Shown: piece by piece, positions 30,554 to 37,507 of the stretch
Numbering within the stretch: position 1 is the first letter of the stretch
Layout of the letters: every line of letters begins with the position of its first letter
Assembly: GCF_900114635.1 (NCBI RefSeq)
Contig: NZ_FOTQ01000001.1
Coordinates: 806,001 to 870,000 of the forward strand
From: Shimia aestuarii
GTDB lineage: Bacteria > Pseudomonadota > Alphaproteobacteria > Rhodobacterales > Rhodobacteraceae
DNA: 64,000 nucleotides
Reading direction: 5' to 3'
Made by a program: the position numbers and the translations under genes
Notes under the pieces: generated by a model
Told to the model about the DNA's origin: nothing
Databases searched by the model: none
The model's input: the letters and a program-made list of their open reading frames with translations, nothing else

Positions 30554-31204
30554 TCAGCGAACCCGGATCACGTGGCGACGGTAGACCTCGATCATCCAGC
30601 CCAGCATCACGGCATTGAGGATATGCCACAGGAAGTGGGTGCCAATCGGGATCGCGCCGCAAAGGGTATCATCAAGGCTGCGGAAGGTCAGTGACAGCGC
30701 GAGGAGCGAGGACCCAATGGCCAGCCCGCGCGCCACGTCCGGCAGGCGGTGGCGCAGAAGCAAGGCATAGGCCGCGATCAGGAGCGGGATCGGCCAGTAT
30801 CCGGCAGAGACGTCAAGGAAGGGCAATTGCCGGAACAGCGGGACGGTGAGCGCGGCGTAGGGAAAGAAAAGCGCCGTTGTCCCCAGAGCCAGCGGCCAGC
30901 GCATGCCCCAATAGGCGCGATTCGCCAGCGTAATGTAGATCAGCACATAGACCGCGATCGGCAGCACATCCGCCACACCGGCCCAGACCTGTGCATGGGT
31001 GTGAAACAGGTAGCTGCCGATCCCGATCACTGCCAGCACGCCACAAAGCAACCGCGCCGCGCCCATCCCCGCACCCTGCACCCGGCGCCACATGATCAGC
31101 GCCGCGATCAGGAACGCGGCATTGGTGACTGCGTTGACCGGCTCGGCCCAATAGCCCGGGTCCGCCCGTTCGCAATATCCGTCCACCGCGCGCGTCCAGT
31201 CCAT
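30554..31204 (-). CDS. Ceramidase-family membrane protein
   Basis: A 216-residue protein with about seven membrane helices and the alkaline ceramidase/PAQR-like pattern: EPVNAVTNAAFLIAAL, GIGSYLFHTHAQVWAGVADV and LDDTLCGAIPIGTHFLWHIL, which supply the conserved zinc His and Asp residues. Members hydrolyse amide bonds of sphingolipids in eukaryotes; bacterial substrates are unclear. The ATG at 31204 has GAGGGAAG upstream. It is divergent from the cyclase operon, 71 bp away, with an inverted repeat between. Confidence 0.85.
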   Translation of the reverse strand: MDWTRAVDGYCERADPGYWAEPVNAVTNAAFLIAALIMWRRVQGAGMGAARLLCGVLAVIGIGSYLFHTHAQVWAGVADVLPIAVYVLIYITLANRAYWGMRWPLALGTTALFFPYAALTVPLFRQLPFLDVSAGYWPIPLLIAAYALLLRHRLPDVARGLAIGSSLLALSLTFRSLDDTLCGAIPIGTHFLWHILNAVMLGWMIEVYRRHVIRVR

Positions 31205-31236
31205 CTGTTCTCTTCCCTCGCCGCAAACCCGTGCTA

Positions 31237-31260
31237 GTCTGAATTCAATCCATTTCAGAC
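31237..31260. promoter_or_regulatory. Inverted repeat between ceramidase gene and cyclase operon
   Basis: A perfect 7-bp inverted repeat, GTCTGAA (31237-31243) and TTCAGAC (31254-31260) with a 10-bp AT-rich spacer, lies directly before the ribosome-binding site (AGGGAGAG) of the hydrolase that opens the operon. It could be an operator serving both divergent genes, or an mRNA hairpin; no regulator gene is adjacent. Confidence 0.45.
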
Positions 31261-31275
31261 ATAGGGAGAGTCTTC

Positions 31276-31968
31276 ATGCAAATCATCTGGCTTGGCCACG
31301 GATCCTTTCGCATCGAAACCGGTGACAAGGTGCTGCTGATCGACCCATGGCTCACCGGCAACCCGGTCCTGCCCGAAGAGAGCCACGACGCCGCCGTCGC
31401 CGGCGCCACCCACCTGATCCTGACCCATGCGCATTTCGACCACGTGGCCGACATGCTGCCGCTGGCGCGCAAACTGGGCGTGCCGATCGTCGGCCAGTAT
31501 GACCTGATGTCCTATTGGAACGAGCATGAACACCTCGACACGGTCGGCTTCAACAAGGGCGGCACGGTCGACCTTGGCGGGGTGCAGCTTGCGATGGTGC
31601 CGGCCTCGCACAGTTCGACCTTTGCCACCGACGACGGCCCCAAGGCTGCCGGGTCCGAGGTGGGCTATATGCTCATGGCCGAAGGCAAGACGGTCTATAT
31701 CTCGGGCGATACCGACATCATGGCCGACATGGACTGGATGGGGGATTATTACAAACCCGAGATCGGCATCCTGTCGGCGGGCGGGCATTTCACCATGGAC
31801 ATGAAGGGCACGGCCTATGCGGCCAAACGCTATTTCAACTTCAAGACGGTGATCCCCTGCCATTACAAGACCTTCCCGATCCTTGAACAGGACGCCGAGG
31901 CGCTCAAGGCGGGCCTGCCCGGAGTCGACGTGATCGAACCCGAGGTGATGCAGGCCATCGAGGTCTAA
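31276..31968 (+). CDS. Metallo-beta-lactamase-fold hydrolase (UPF0173)
   Basis: A 230-residue soluble hydrolase of the UPF0173/YtkL type: MQIIWLGHGSFRIETGD opening, zinc motif HAHFDHVADM near residue 58, GDTDIMADMDWM near 140, and the C-terminal VIPCHYKTFPIL. The family's substrate is unknown; a phosphodiester or lactone-type hydrolysis is only a guess from the fold. It has AGGGAGAG before its ATG and is followed after 6 nt by the first cyclase, so it is probably the first gene of the operon that runs to 37034. Confidence 0.9.
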   Translation: MQIIWLGHGSFRIETGDKVLLIDPWLTGNPVLPEESHDAAVAGATHLILTHAHFDHVADMLPLARKLGVPIVGQYDLMSYWNEHEHLDTVGFNKGGTVDLGGVQLAMVPASHSSTFATDDGPKAAGSEVGYMLMAEGKTVYISGDTDIMADMDWMGDYYKPEIGILSAGGHFTMDMKGTAYAAKRYFNFKTVIPCHYKTFPILEQDAEALKAGLPGVDVIEPEVMQAIEV

Positions 31969-31974
31969 GGGACA

Positions 31975-32949
31975 ATGTGCGCCGGGATCACCCCGTCGGC
32001 CGAGCTTGGCCCCATCGTGGAAAGGTGGCTGCGCGCTTATGCGCGGGGCGACAAGGAGACGGTGGTCAACCTTTTGTCGAATGATCCGGCGCTCTCTTAT
32101 GTTGGCTCGGCAGACAATGAAATCTGGCGCGGGGCGGCGCTCAAACGCACCCTGCCGCATTACATGGATGAAATCCCGCGCTTTGACTGGTCCAGCACGG
32201 AATTCCGCGGCTTTTCCTGTGGCGACATTGGCTGGGTCGAGTGGCACGGAGACACCTTTGCCCGCGACACCGGCAAATCGGTCAAGTTCCGCTCGGTCTT
32301 TGTGCTGGCACTGGAAAAAGGCGTCTGGCGCATTGTGCTGGTGATGAACTCGAACCCGGTGGCGAACATGCAGGCGCTTGGCTACGAGGCCGAGGGCTTT
32401 GAAGACCTTGTTGACGCGGCCCTCTCCGCCCCTGCCACCCTTGCGCAAACGGGGATTGCCACGATCATGTTCACCGATATTGCCGACAGCACCACGATCG
32501 CCCAAACCATCGGTGACGCGCGCTGGACGGCCGCCGTGAACGCCCATGTGGATCAGGTGAGCAACGTGATCACAGACCATGGCGGCACCCTGATCAAGAC
32601 GCTGGGGGACGGTACCATGGCCTCTTTTCCCTCGTCCCGCGCGGGCCTGCTCGCGGCCTCGGGTCTGCAACAGGCCATGAATGCGGCGACCAGCGAACCC
32701 AAGCTGCAAATCCGCATCGGGTTGCACACCGGGGACCTTGTCGAACGCGATGGCGACATGTTCGGCACCGTTGTGAACAAGGCCGCCCGCATCGCCGCTC
32801 TGGCCGCACCGGGCAGTATTCTCCTCTCGGATGCCACCCGCATCATGGTGGGCGGCGCGTCGGAGTTCTCCTTTGGCCCCTCCACCTCGGTGGCGCTCAA
32901 GGGGTTGGAGGGAGACCATACGCTTTATCAACTGGACTGGCAGGCATGA
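31975..32949 (+). CDS. Class III nucleotidyl cyclase 1 with NTF2/SnoaL-like N-terminal domain
   Basis: A 324-residue soluble protein. Residues about 5-140 form a SnoaL/NTF2-like domain (LSYVGSADNEIWRGAALKRT; GVWRIVLVMNS); about 160-324 form a class III cyclase domain. Both metal aspartates are present (MFTDIADST and LGDGTM), with the Lys of IKTLGDG and the Asn/Arg pair in VVNKAARI, so it should be able to make a cyclic nucleotide. DMFGTVVN has the Asp often seen in adenylate cyclases. No membrane segment. First of four tandem paralogues and the most divergent; its stop overlaps the next start (ATGA). Confidence 0.88.
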   Translation: MCAGITPSAELGPIVERWLRAYARGDKETVVNLLSNDPALSYVGSADNEIWRGAALKRTLPHYMDEIPRFDWSSTEFRGFSCGDIGWVEWHGDTFARDTGKSVKFRSVFVLALEKGVWRIVLVMNSNPVANMQALGYEAEGFEDLVDAALSAPATLAQTGIATIMFTDIADSTTIAQTIGDARWTAAVNAHVDQVSNVITDHGGTLIKTLGDGTMASFPSSRAGLLAASGLQQAMNAATSEPKLQIRIGLHTGDLVERDGDMFGTVVNKAARIAALAAPGSILLSDATRIMVGGASEFSFGPSTSVALKGLEGDHTLYQLDWQA

Positions 32950-33920
32950 GCGACGTTCGCCCTTCGCCGGAATTGCTCGCGGTGGCGCGCCGCTGGTTTG
33001 ACGCCGTCCCGAACCGCCGGGCCCGCGAAATTGGCAACCTCATGTCCGAAAGCCCCCATCTCACCTTTGTCGGCACGGATGAAGACGAACTTTGGACGGG
33101 CCGCGCCGTGCGCGACGGGGTGGCCGATTTCTTCGGGGCGGTTCCGGATTTTGCGCGCCAGGACGAAATCTTTGGGGCGGCCTATGAATGCGGCACCGTC
33201 GGCTGGGCCATCTTTACCCACGAAGTCAGTTTTCTGAATGATCCAAGCGAGGTGTTTTTCGTTCGCAATACGTTGGTGTTCACCTTGGAGCATGGAACAT
33301 GGAGAATAATCCATCGGCATGGTTCGGTGCCCTACCCCAACGCAGATTTCACCGGCGCTGACCAGTCCGCGATTGCCGATCTCGTGGCCGCCGCGCAAGA
33401 GGGGTTTGCGCTGGATCAACGCGAAGGCTTTGCCACGGTGATGTTCACCGACATCGTGAACTCCGCGCGCATTGCTTCTGTGATGGGCGACAGGCTCTGG
33501 TCCGCAGAAATTGCCCGACACTTCGACACGCTGCGCAGGATCATCGAACAGGGCGGCGGGCAATTCGTGAAATCGCTCGGCGACGGCACCATGTCCAGTT
33601 TCGCCGCACCCACCGCCGCCCTGCAGGCCGCGCGCGCGATCCAGACAGCCGTGGAACAGTCTGACGGACCGTCGATCACGCTTCGGGTCGGCATCCATTC
33701 GGGCCCCGTTGTACAGACCGAGGCCGATTTCTTCGGGTCGGTCGTCAACAAGGCCGCCCGCATTGCGGCCTCTGCCGGAGCGCGCGAAATCCGGGTCTCG
33801 GACGCGACCCGCACCATGGTCGGGGATAGGTCCGGGCTCGCCTTCGACGCGCCTGCCTCGGTTGCGCTCAAGGGGTTTGAGGGAGAGCACCTTGTCTATC
33901 GGCTGGAGTGGTCCACATGA
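32946..33920 (+). CDS. Class III nucleotidyl cyclase 2 with NTF2/SnoaL-like N-terminal domain
   Basis: A 324-residue paralogue. The N-terminal domain opens SDVRPSPELLAVARRWFDAV and has LTFVGTDEDELWTGRAVRDG and TWRIIHRHGSVP. The cyclase half keeps MFTDIVNSARI, FVKSLGDGTM, ADFFGSVVN and NKAARIAASAG, so the metal, base and transition-state residues look intact. Start and stop both lie in ATGA overlaps (32946 and 33917), giving tight coupling to cyclases 1 and 3. What the NTF2-like pocket senses is unknown. Confidence 0.88.
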   Translation: MSDVRPSPELLAVARRWFDAVPNRRAREIGNLMSESPHLTFVGTDEDELWTGRAVRDGVADFFGAVPDFARQDEIFGAAYECGTVGWAIFTHEVSFLNDPSEVFFVRNTLVFTLEHGTWRIIHRHGSVPYPNADFTGADQSAIADLVAAAQEGFALDQREGFATVMFTDIVNSARIASVMGDRLWSAEIARHFDTLRRIIEQGGGQFVKSLGDGTMSSFAAPTAALQAARAIQTAVEQSDGPSITLRVGIHSGPVVQTEADFFGSVVNKAARIAASAGAREIRVSDATRTMVGDRSGLAFDAPASVALKGFEGEHLVYRLEWST

Positions 33921-34888
33921 TCCGCCCCTCCCCCGAACTACTGGCCGTGTCGCGGCGCTGGTATGACGCGATTGTCACCCGCCATCCCAGCGAATTGCAG
34001 AACTTTTTGTCCAGCGGGGCACATCTGCGCTTTGTCGGCTCTGCCGAGGATGAGCATTGGCTTGGCACCGCCGTGCGACAGGCCATCGGCGATCATTTTC
34101 ACGAAGTGCCCGAGCTGATCCGCAAGGAAGAGCTTGCCGCCGAGGCCTTTGAAAGCAACGGCGCGGGTTGGTCCTTCTTTGCGCACCGCTTCTGGTTCGA
34201 AAACCGCCCCGATCAACCTGTCACCTTCCGCACCACGCTCGTTTTCACGCTCGAGGATGGCAGCTGGAAGATCATTCAGCGCCACGCCTCGGTGCCGGTC
34301 TCAAACGCGCTCATTACCGGCAATGAACACAAGGCGATACAGGCCCTGACCGAAGCGGCCCAACAGGGCTTTGCCCTTGGCCAGCGCGAAGGCCTGGCTT
34401 CGGTCATGTTCACCGACGTCGTCGACAGTTCGACCTTGGCCAACGCGCTTGGCGACAGGGTCTGGTCCGCGCGCGTCGCCGAGCATTTCAACCACCTGCG
34501 TGGCATTATCGAAACCCATGACGGACAGTTCGTCAAATCCTTGGGCGACGGTACCCTGTCGAGCTTTTCCTCGGCCAAGGCGGCCCTTGCCGCCGCCGTC
34601 GACATCCAACGTGCCATGACCGAGCAAGCCAGCGAACCCTACCTTCAATTGCGCATCGGCATCCATACAGGTGACGTCGTGCAATCGGATGACGATTTCT
34701 TTGGCAATGTCGTGAACAAGGCTGCCCGCATCACCGCCACCGCCGGATCGGGCGAAATCCGGGTCTCTGACATCACCCGTGCCATGGTGGGTGGGGCCAG
34801 CGGCTTTGCCTTTTCCGCTCCGCGCAGCGCACGGCTCAAAGGGTTCGACGGCGACCATGTCACACATGCCTTGGAGTGGTCCGCATGA
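33917..34888 (+). CDS. Class III nucleotidyl cyclase 3 with NTF2/SnoaL-like N-terminal domain
   Basis: A 323-residue paralogue beginning MIRPSPELLAVSRRWYDAIV; its NTF2-like domain has LRFVGSAEDEHWLGTAVRQA and SWKIIQRHASVPV. The cyclase half has MFTDVVDSSTL, FVKSLGDGTL, DDFFGNVVN and NKAARITATAG: no catalytic residue is visibly missing. The ATG at 33917 forms an ATGA overlap with the previous stop; a GTG at 33908 is rejected because of that. Closest in sequence to cyclase 2, suggesting duplication in place. Confidence 0.88.
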   Translation: MIRPSPELLAVSRRWYDAIVTRHPSELQNFLSSGAHLRFVGSAEDEHWLGTAVRQAIGDHFHEVPELIRKEELAAEAFESNGAGWSFFAHRFWFENRPDQPVTFRTTLVFTLEDGSWKIIQRHASVPVSNALITGNEHKAIQALTEAAQQGFALGQREGLASVMFTDVVDSSTLANALGDRVWSARVAEHFNHLRGIIETHDGQFVKSLGDGTLSSFSSAKAALAAAVDIQRAMTEQASEPYLQLRIGIHTGDVVQSDDDFFGNVVNKAARITATAGSGEIRVSDITRAMVGGASGFAFSAPRSARLKGFDGDHVTHALEWSA

Positions 34889-35859
34889 TCCGCCCCTCCC
34901 CCGAGATCGAGGCCATCGTGCGCCGCTTTACCAGCGCGATCCGCAACCATGACGTCACCGACCTGCCCCATTACCTCAGCCAGAATGACGCGCTGCTCTA
35001 TGTCGGCACGGCCGAGGGCGAGGCGTGGCACGGGGCCATCGTGCGCGACGGCATCGCCGCCCATCTCGCCGAGGTGCCCGACTTCACCGAAACCGAGGTC
35101 GAGATCACCGCCTTTGAAAACGGCGACACCGGCTGGGCCTTTTATAAAAGCCGGTTCCACTTCGCGACCACGGGCGCCACCGGCACGCACCGGGCCACCT
35201 TTGTCTTCGTGCTGGAACAGGGCGGCTGGAAAATGATCCAGCACCACATTTCCGAGGCCACCTCGAACCTCGAAAAACTGGGGCTCGAACACTCGGCCAT
35301 CCAATCCCTGCTTGACGCGGCACAGGCCGAAGAGTTCGACTTTGGTGACGAGGGTCTGGCCTCGATCATGTTCACCGACATTGCCGACTCGACCTCTCTT
35401 GCGGCGCTGGTCGGGGATCGGGTCTGGATGCAGGCGCTCGCCCGCCACATGCAGGACGTCACCGCCGTGATCGCCGCGCAGAACGGCGAACTGGTCAAGT
35501 CTCTGGGCGATGGCACCATGTCCGCCTTCCCATCCGCGCGCGGCGCGCTCAACGCCGCGCTGGCCCTTCAGGCCCGCGTCGCGGCCCATGAAACCGAGCC
35601 GCAGATCGCCGTGCGCATCGGCATCCACACCGGCGAGGTGATCCGCTCGAGGAACGACTTCTTCGGCACCGTGGTCAACAAGGCCGCGCGCATCGCCGAT
35701 CTTGCTCGCCCCGGCGAAATCCGCCTCTCCGACGCAACACGCTTGATTGCGGGAACCGGCGCGGATTACCGTTTCACGGACCCGTCCACGCACCCGCTCA
35801 AGGGGCTGGACGGCGATCACCTCACCTATCAACTGCGTCCCAGAGAAAAGGACACCTGA
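34885..35859 (+). CDS. Class III nucleotidyl cyclase 4 with NTF2/SnoaL-like N-terminal domain
   Basis: A 324-residue paralogue starting MIRPSPEIEAIVRRFTSAIR, with LLYVGTAEGEAWHGAIVRDG and GWKMIQHHISEA in the NTF2-like domain. The cyclase half has MFTDIADSTSL, LVKSLGDGTM, NDFFGTVVN and NKAARIADLAR, all catalytic positions kept. The ATG at 34885 overlaps the previous stop (ATGA) and the stop at 35857-35859 shares a base with the next gene (TGATG). Class III cyclases work as dimers with shared active sites, so products of these four genes might mix. Confidence 0.88.
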   Translation: MIRPSPEIEAIVRRFTSAIRNHDVTDLPHYLSQNDALLYVGTAEGEAWHGAIVRDGIAAHLAEVPDFTETEVEITAFENGDTGWAFYKSRFHFATTGATGTHRATFVFVLEQGGWKMIQHHISEATSNLEKLGLEHSAIQSLLDAAQAEEFDFGDEGLASIMFTDIADSTSLAALVGDRVWMQALARHMQDVTAVIAAQNGELVKSLGDGTMSAFPSARGALNAALALQARVAAHETEPQIAVRIGIHTGEVIRSRNDFFGTVVNKAARIADLARPGEIRLSDATRLIAGTGADYRFTDPSTHPLKGLDGDHLTYQLRPREKDT

Positions 35860-37034
35860 TGCCCGCCAGCGATTTCACGCCCAAAGAATACGCCGACCGC
35901 CTTGCCAAGACCCGCACCGCCATGGCCACCCGGGGCATCGACACACTGATCGTGGCCGATCCTTCGAACATGGCGTGGCTGACCGGGTATGACGGCTGGA
36001 GCTTCTATGTCCCCCAGGCCGTCGTCCTGCACAAATCGGGCGACCCCCTCTGGTGGGGCCGCACTCAGGACCGCCCCGGCGCGGCCCAGACCACGTGGAT
36101 GGAGGCCGATCACCTGCTCGACTGGCCCGAGGAACACGTCCAGCACCCCGACCACCACCCCTACGAGGCGCTGGTGGCCCACCTGCGCGACCGCGGCTGG
36201 ACCCGCGCCCTCGGGGTCGAGATGGACAATTACTACTATTCGGCCAAGTCACACGCGGCGCTGCTCGACGCCTTTGGACAAGACCAGATCACCGACGCCA
36301 CCAGCCTCGTGAACTGGCAGCGCACCGTCAAAAGCCCGGCCGAGCTGGCCATGATGCGCAAGGCCGGGCAACTCAGCGAACATATGCACGCCACCCTGCG
36401 CGCGGGCTTTCGTGCAGGCCGGCCCAAACATGAACTTGTGGCCGAGGTTCAGGCCGCCGGAGTCGCGGGCCTGCCCGGCATCGCCGGGGACTATGCGGCC
36501 ATTGCCCCGATTGCCCCCTCGGGCACCGAAGCTTCGGCCTCGCATATCACGTGGAATGACCGCCCCCTGACACCGGGCGAAGCCACCTATTTCGAAATTT
36601 CGGGCTGCTATCACCGCTACCACTGCCCGATCAGCCGCACGCTCTATCTTGGCGAACCTCCCGCCGATATCCGCCGCGCCGAAGACGCCGTTCTGTCCGC
36701 CATCACCGATACCTTCGCCGCGGCCAAACCCGGCGTGACCAGCGAAGAGGTCGCGGCCTGCGTTTACGAAAGCTTTGCGCGCGCGGGCTATGTCAAAGGC
36801 AACCGCACCGGCTATCCGATCGGCCTCAGCTACCCGCCCGACTGGGGCGAACGCACCATCAGCCTGCGGCCCGGCGATACGACGCCACTCGAAGAAAACA
36901 TGACCTTCCACCTGATGCCCGGCCTCTGGACCCCGGATTGGGGTGTCGCGATCACCGAAAGCTTCGTCATCACCCCCGAAGGTGGTCAGCCGCTCGCCAA
37001 TGTCCCACGCGAGATATTTGTCGTTCCGGCCTGA
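35859..37034 (+). CDS. M24-family hydrolase, ectoine hydrolase DoeA/EutD-like
   Basis: A 391-residue creatinase/Xaa-Pro-peptidase-fold protein. It resembles ectoine hydrolases in IVADPSNMAWLTGYDGWSFY, GIAGDYAAIAPIAPSGTEAS, CYHRYHCPISRT, NRTGYPIGLSYPPDWGERT and the end LANVPREIFV. DoeA opens ectoine to N-acetyl-diaminobutyrate, but the usual doeB/eut genes are absent here, so the substrate is inferred only. The metal-binding Asp pair of true aminopeptidases seems replaced (FEISG, CPISRT), as in creatinase. It is the last gene of the cyclase operon. Confidence 0.75.
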   Translation: MPASDFTPKEYADRLAKTRTAMATRGIDTLIVADPSNMAWLTGYDGWSFYVPQAVVLHKSGDPLWWGRTQDRPGAAQTTWMEADHLLDWPEEHVQHPDHHPYEALVAHLRDRGWTRALGVEMDNYYYSAKSHAALLDAFGQDQITDATSLVNWQRTVKSPAELAMMRKAGQLSEHMHATLRAGFRAGRPKHELVAEVQAAGVAGLPGIAGDYAAIAPIAPSGTEASASHITWNDRPLTPGEATYFEISGCYHRYHCPISRTLYLGEPPADIRRAEDAVLSAITDTFAAAKPGVTSEEVAACVYESFARAGYVKGNRTGYPIGLSYPPDWGERTISLRPGDTTPLEENMTFHLMPGLWTPDWGVAITESFVITPEGGQPLANVPREIFVVPA

Positions 37035-37051
37035 ACACCACCGGCGCGGCC

Positions 37052-37507
37052 CTAGCCCGGGCGCCGCGCCGCGAAAAACGCCTTCAGCAACTCTTCGGCC
37101 TCAACCGCGCCAATCCCGTCATAGACCTCGGGCACGTGATGGCTCTGGGGATGGGCAAACACGCGCGGCCCCTGTGCCACGCCGCCCGACTTGGGGTCCG
37201 CTGCACCATAATACACCCGCGCAATCCGCGCCTGGCTGATCGCGCTGGCGCACATCGGACAGGGCTCCAGCGTCACGTACAAATCATGACCGGGCAAACG
37301 CTCGCTGCCCAGCACCCTGCACGCCGCGCGCATGGCGACAATCTCGGCATGGGCCGTCGGATCGTTCCATTCCCGCGTCCGGTTGCCCGCTGCCGCAACA
37401 ACCTTGCCGTCGGGCGACACGACAACTGCGCCCACCGGCACCTCGCCGCGTTCGGCGGCCGCGCGCGCCTCGGCCAGCGCCTGATCCATATGGCTCTTGA
37501 ACGTCAT
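37052..37507 (-). CDS. tadA: tRNA-specific adenosine deaminase TadA
   Basis: TadA converts A34 to inosine in tRNA-Arg(ACG). The 151 residues have the zinc deaminase motif HAEIVAMRAAC with catalytic Glu, LEPCPMCASAI with two zinc cysteines, and VYYGAADPKSGG. The ATG at 37507 has GAGGGG upstream. A GC-rich 8-bp stem (37043-37070) covers the end of the gene and could help terminate transcription against the convergent M24 gene. Confidence 0.95.
   Translation of the reverse strand: MTFKSHMDQALAEARAAAERGEVPVGAVVVSPDGKVVAAAGNRTREWNDPTAHAEIVAMRAACRVLGSERLPGHDLYVTLEPCPMCASAISQARIARVYYGAADPKSGGVAQGPRVFAHPQSHHVPEVYDGIGAVEAEELLKAFFAARRPG

Follow-up and report, generated by a model that had tools for sequence, protein, structure and literature searches.

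Four tandem genes for predicted class III adenylate cyclases with NTF2-like domains in Shimia aestuarii and their possible role as separate inputs to one cAMP pool

We analysed a 64,000-nt stretch of the Shimia aestuarii genome (this genome is coded G000; the whole stretch is called the window below) which carries four consecutive genes for putative soluble class III adenylate cyclases, each with an N-terminal NTF2-like domain of the SnoaL_3 type. According to the reading that we prefer, and to which we give an even chance, these are co-expressed and separately gated enzymes, most likely homodimers, that feed one pool of cyclic adenosine monophosphate (cAMP). An earlier note on this DNA had described four tandem cyclases of 323 to 324 residues, joined by ATGA overlaps and flanked by the genes of a UPF0173 hydrolase and of an M24 protein. 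The list of open reading frames and a check of the junctions bore this layout out: six co-directional genes at 31276-37034 overlap their neighbors or lie at most 6 bases apart. The features of the locus are the following.

31276..31968, + strand: UPF0173 hydrolase with metallo-beta-lactamase fold, first gene of the apparent unit (NF001911, 225 bits, cut-off 144)
31975..32949, + strand: cyclase 1 (clade A), 324 residues; SnoaL_3 domain at about 15-126, class III cyclase domain at about 160-320
32946..33920, + strand: cyclase 2 (clade B), 324 residues; ATGA overlap with cyclase 1
33917..34888, + strand: cyclase 3 (clade C), 323 residues; ATGA overlap with cyclase 2
34885..35859, + strand: cyclase 4 (clade D), 324 residues; ATGA overlap with cyclase 3
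35859..37034, + strand: M24 peptidase/creatinase-fold protein, DoeA-like (PF00557, 122.8 bits; TIGR02993, 504 bits, cut-off 613)
30554-31204, - strand: ceramidase-family gene (PF05875), diverging from the UPF0173 gene across 71 bases

Both domains were recognized in all four proteins, SnoaL_3 (PF13474) with 46.0-74.3 bits (Pfam cut-off 22) and Guanylate_cyc (PF00211) with 56.6-60.6 bits (cut-off 21.9). The same pair was matched in 73 of 73 family members scanned (SnoaL_3 at E 0.001), which comprise the four window copies and 69 copies chosen for diversity from 114 others. In class III cyclases two aspartates bind the metal ions, a lysine and an aspartate choose the substrate, and an asparagine and an arginine act on the transition state. 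The corresponding residues D168, K208, D212, D261, N268 and R272 (numbering of cyclase 1) are invariant across the four cyclases, and all 118 full-length copies, of which 114 come from 75 loci and four from the window, have the complete set. This count leaves out 13 copies from L084-L090, which duplicate the window or genomes already counted, and the split or domain-deficient copies (those of L023, L029 and L083, plus a single copy from L026 and another from L042). Since the patterns used to find the loci included D168, D261 and N268, the conservation that is free of this search bias is that of K208, D212 and R272. For the Lys/Asp pair, PDB titles with the wording 'KDA to EGY' mark it as substrate-choosing in Ma1120, an adenylate cyclase from Mycobacterium avium. 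Judged by these residues, the four proteins are predicted to be active soluble class III adenylate cyclases with ATP as substrate. The statement of the earlier note that the metal aspartates, the lysine and the NKAAR motif are kept and that none of the copies looks dead was confirmed, with the six residues intact in all four; its expression 'four active cyclases' holds for the catalytic residues, and we would word it as 'predicted to be active'.

AlphaFold models of cyclases 1 and 4 reached a mean predicted local distance difference test score of 90.6 and 92.9, respectively. Low confidence was found mainly at about 130-160, the joint between the two domains, and the predicted template modelling score was 0.57, as expected if the domains have no single fixed arrangement. 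A Foldseek search with the model of cyclase 1 gave 5d0e (Ma1120) as best match (E 6.8e-17, template modelling score (TM-score) to target 0.94). The order of helices and strands in the N-terminal domain of the two confident models fits an NTF2-like fold; the 50 full-length fold matches listed all contain a cyclase.

The sensor domains have diverged more than the catalytic domains. Within the window the former are 27-50% identical and the latter 48-61%. Positions that are at least 70% fixed within each clade and differ between clades numbered 11 among the 127 of the sensor domain and 4 among the 164 of the catalytic domain, a difference with a p value of only 0.03 in Fisher's test; it is based on 69 of the 118 rows, in clades of unequal size (7-33). 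The sharpest of them is residue 125, which is Asn, Gly, Ala or Ile in clades A, B, C and D. The model of cyclase 1 places it in the final strand of this domain, beside Ser126, a residue shared by all 73 aligned members. This pattern would fit different ligand pockets, and so far it agrees with the idea of the earlier note that the NTF2-like domains act as small-molecule sensors; the link to ectoine that the note attached to it did not hold (see below).

The window copies belong to four old lineages. In a tree of the 118 full-length copies, built by a quick method with the Shimodaira-Hasegawa-like approximate likelihood ratio test (SH-aLRT) as its only support measure and with several long branches, chiefly the two rows of L082, they fall into four clades with SH-aLRT values of 95, 96, 98 and 100. 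Clade A holds 33 rows, B 19, C 7 and D 10, and 49 of the 118 rows lie outside these clades. The clades span genera, and each window copy has 65-73% identity with the nearest relative from outside. Inside the window cyclase 1 shares 39-42% identity with the other three and cyclase 4 shares 41-46%; identity is highest between cyclases 2 and 3 (50-61%, domains compared separately). The order of the genes is largely kept as well. Besides the window, clades A, B and D occur together in six multi-copy loci (L012, L013, L015, L017, L026 and L028), and in all of them A is first, B lies between and D is last, as in the window. L026, from the window's own genus group (its genome is coded G002 there), repeats the window order: A and B are followed by a frameshifted gene whose nearest clade is C, and then by D. 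Four further arrays start with A and B and continue with other lineages (L009, L010, L011 and L031; L010 and L011 have a further A copy in between). L034 contains A, C, D and one copy outside the four clades, in L042 such a copy is followed by C and D, and neither copy of L030 falls into clades A-D.

For 16 orthologue pairs from six related arrays outside the window (L009, L010, L011, L013, L015 and L028) the ratio of nonsynonymous to synonymous substitution rates (dN/dS) was 0.08-0.22 over the entire genes; taken separately, the sensor domain gave 0.06-0.22 and the catalytic domain 0.06-0.30. The orthologues in these related arrays are under purifying selection. Because the clades span genera, the order is largely kept and dN/dS is low, the data suggest that the array genes have long been maintained as distinct and specialized genes and are not a fresh amplification.

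Related copies were also counted in the host's family. In a draw of 345 genomes from 344 genera, with at most six candidates scored per genome, 13 genomes contained a family cyclase match at E 1e-60 or better. Twelve of them comprise five genomes with adjacent copies (four each in G000, G029 and G079, five in G121 and two in G185), G103 with two unlinked copies and six genomes with a single copy; in G324 the match covers the catalytic part only. A UPF0173 gene lies beside the cyclase region in 37 of the 75 loci. At least one full copy is present at 35 of these: one copy at 21 loci, two at one, three at four, four at five and five at four, the last group including L028 from a strain of Ruegeria pomeroyi. 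Within this family, to which our test of the note's word 'unusual' was confined, the four-copy array is not a local oddity, as 14 of the 35 loci hold two to five copies. The earlier note had named routine occurrence as single inactive genes as a pattern that would speak against it. Single copies are indeed common, yet none of the 118 copies has lost a catalytic residue.

The site reads gatA-gatC-(ceramidase-like)-UPF0173 ... tadA, not all neighbors being present at each locus. In 24 genomes of the genus the gene after UPF0173 is a family cyclase (5), M24 (7) or tadA (12). As these three alternate after a fixed UPF0173 gene, the array is a cassette that lies between UPF0173 and tadA in some lineages. 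Away from this site full copies were found at 37 loci, 35 of them with a single copy, although some contigs end near the copy. The other two off-site loci each have a pair, head-to-head in L020 and in tandem in L082. Clustering of the neighbors at the 37 off-site loci gave fixed-place clusters that all come from four Ruegeria loci (L061, L063, L065 and L067); the two commonest clusters (seven loci each) are in mixed positions and include other class III cyclases and alpha/beta-hydrolase-like proteins (assigned partly by eye).

Several single observations belong to this survey. The ceramidase-family gene (PF05875) recurs at many related loci, but not at all of them. An Acidimicrobiia contig from a metagenome-assembled genome carries a distant tandem pair with the same domain architecture (L082:752-2815), and a single copy with 49% identity to cyclase 2 is located on a 787-kb Ruegeria conchae replicon found in a plasmid collection (NZ_CP081104.1:377850-378812). 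At 11 of the 37 off-site loci (L019, L020, L021, L022, L039, L045, L058, L063, L064, L068 and L079) a further class III cyclase match lies in the flank examined, a count for which no background rate was computed. The UPF0173-tadA site of L083 (6971-7489; likewise L156) contains a cyclase without the NTF2-like half, in which only model positions 150-323 match; the open frame of this type has 213 residues in G324, and the match is separated from the UPF0173 gene by about 100 bases. Split or partly deleted family copies were seen at L026:8922-9880, L023:7001-7957, L029:7001-7957 and L042:7951-8379, where sequencing errors are possible. The split and partial copies suggest that array members are being lost.

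From these results we propose the following mode of action. Each cyclase would most likely be a homodimer with two complete ATP sites. The N-terminal NTF2-like domain would bind a small molecule and set the activity of the catalytic pair through a flexible linker that is 20-30 residues long. The four old paralogues with their presumably diverged pockets would be made together from one unit, and several different ligands could in this way raise or lower one shared cAMP pool, to be read by regulators that bind cyclic nucleoside monophosphates (cNMP) and are encoded elsewhere in the genome. The retention of one to five copies at the same site in relatives suggests separate sensors that feed one signal. 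As for the unit itself, 6 bases separate UPF0173 and cyclase 1, and cyclase 4 and the M24 gene overlap in TGATG; the four cyclase genes and their neighbors form one apparent transcription unit, probably with a single transcript. Beyond the M24 gene follow tadA and an rsuA-like pseudouridine synthase gene. The 4.2-Mb genome contains 29 class III cyclase matches, of which the array accounts for four, and seven cNMP-binding matches, none of them in the window, so that cAMP from the array presumably joins a shared pool. Two other close same-strand cyclase pairs are present in this genome (C25:5725-6954 and C18:1113228-1114833).

A number of observations weigh against this proposal. A scan for sigma-70-like promoters, which may not suit Shimia aestuarii, found none in 31150-37150. 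The extra divergence of the sensor domains may be ordinary faster drift, and the test on clade-specific positions gave a p value of only 0.03. The order of clades has an exception in L035, with B first and C last, and several arrays include lineages outside the four sets. Clade C includes a metagenome-assembled genome of the Rhizobiaceae group, 37 loci with copies lie off the UPF0173 site, and the genus-spanning clades could have arisen by transfer of copies or arrays between lineages. Finally, the nearest solved relatives of the sensor domain are weak (3h51, 8uqf and 3f7s, E 0.0006-0.0009), and the association domain of CaMKII (CaMKII_AD), an assembly domain, was matched as well in 4 of the 73 members.

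The latter matches lead to a different view of the NTF2-like domain, namely that it is an assembly domain or hub as in CaMKII and not a ligand sensor, and that the array forms oligomers of a mixed or stacked kind which produce more cAMP. The best PDB sequence match, 3h51, is itself a putative CaMKII association domain, and PMC3924330 reports NTF2-like domains in non-catalytic roles, including the multimerization of CaMKII. With SnoaL_3 matched in all 73 members vs CaMKII_AD in four, and with a fast divergence and clade-specific positions that would be easier to explain by a choice of ligands, we consider a role in assembly rather unlikely.

In the earlier note the point of the array was seen in mixed dimers: the coupled genes would yield heterodimers in which two sites and two different sensors integrate pairs of ligands. 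Class III sites are formed at the dimer interface, the ATGA overlaps join the four genes, and catalytic domains with 48-61% identity are perhaps similar enough to share interfaces. In obligate heterodimeric cyclases of the C1/C2 type each partner has lost half of the site. In contrast, a search for such complementary losses among the 118 full copies found none that lacks any of the six residues, and both half-sites are complete throughout. No other full family member was found beside clade A in G013 and G075 (in G075 the copy lies close to the end of its contig), beside clade B in G252, G298 and G189, or beside clade D in G014, all of them genomes with a completeness of 98-100%; clade C was seen alone only at the level of single loci (L060, L064 and L068). 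A lone full copy is likewise present at 21 of the 35 UPF0173-side loci and, within the limit set by the contig ends, at 35 of the 37 others. Intact half-sites together with clades A, B and D alone in a genome make obligatory mixed dimers unlikely. Optional ones may occur but are not needed to explain the array, and we regard mixed dimers as its purpose as doubtful. A wider version, in which a mixture of homodimers and heterodimers acts as a combinatorial cAMP sensor that reads combinations of ligands, with up to 10 two-pocket cyclases from four genes and graded outputs, seems improbable to us.

The genes could also be tandem duplicates of equal function that are gained and lost by chance, with an effect of dosage or redundancy. 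The copy number varies from one to five, and together with the split or truncated copies in L023, L026, L029, L042 and L083 this suggests that loss is frequent. The copies are nevertheless not recent duplicates, given clades that span genera, an order that is largely kept and the low dN/dS of the orthologues, which makes equal function very improbable.

The earlier note took the M24 neighbor as a hint at ectoine. In a corresponding osmolyte circuit the cyclases would respond to ectoine, or to one of its derivatives, as a product or substrate of the M24 protein. The M24 gene does overlap cyclase 4, and among the NCBIfam models its protein scores highest with TIGR02993 (DoeA), but the 504 bits remain below the curated cut-off of 613. 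A search for DoeB (TIGR02994) gave no match in the own genome and is moderately informative, as the control matched in 1 of 14 genomes, below the cut-off; a search for ectoine synthase was uninformative and not used, since it gave no match anywhere, controls included. M24 is present at 6 of 14 multi-copy vs 7 of 21 single-copy loci (Fisher p 0.72). At these 13 loci it precedes the cyclase in five (L033, L041, L043, L044 and L057) and follows it in eight, and in 7 of the 24 genus genomes M24 stands directly after UPF0173 and there is no full family cyclase. M24 and the cyclases come and go independently. With the DoeA score below its cut-off, DoeB not found and this independent linkage, the ectoine circuit was rejected as hardly credible.

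The UPF0173 protein, which opens the unit and has a metallo-beta-lactamase fold with solved relatives (7e3v, 6hrg and 3x2z), was considered as a dedicated cAMP phosphodiesterase. This candidate was dropped: all 24 genus genomes contain UPF0173 and a family cyclase directly follows in only 5, so that no special link is seen. No paper on UPF0173 was found by title in the literature searched.

Among known systems, Pycsar comprises a class III cyclase, PycC, in an operon with an adjacent nucleotide-gated effector. The array likewise consists of class III cyclases in an apparent operon; no Pycsar-type effector was seen among its Pfam-annotated neighbors, no dedicated search for defence systems having been made. 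The closest structural counterpart is Ma1120 (4wp3, 5d0e), whose catalytic domain is 34% identical, has the TM-score given above and shares the Lys/Asp pair. It differs in that the alignment with its solved chains is confined to the cyclase half plus a short preceding stretch, and Ala is aligned with Asn268. Fusions of the Rv1900c/LipJ type (1ybt; 3mr7 from Silicibacter pomeroyi) likewise place a class III cyclase behind an enzyme-like fold, and in NCBIfam the cyclase half scores best with LipJ (85-95 bits vs a cut-off of 800); their partner half, however, is an alpha/beta hydrolase and not NTF2-like. Rv1264 (1y10, 1y11) is also a two-part cyclase, with its holoenzyme solved in an inhibited and an active state according to the PDB titles. 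Only its cyclase half aligns, and the N-terminal part that exerts control is a domain of another kind. The N-terminal domain of the window cyclases belongs by profile to the SnoaL_3/NTF2-like superfamily, as in all members scanned. In PMC3924330 a role as ligand pocket is proposed for other NTF2-like domains that are linked to signalling domains; a fusion to a class III cyclase is not described in the accessible part of that paper. A description of the pair of SnoaL_3 and class III cyclase domains was not found in the open literature searched, and both this pair and the ordered, old paralogues should be of interest to specialists. The 29 cyclase matches in the present genome raise the question why a single cell would devote so many inputs to one small molecule. 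A short unit of two to five paralogues with diverged sensor-like domains, whose order is largely kept across genera, offers a compact system to study how signals are kept separate or mixed.

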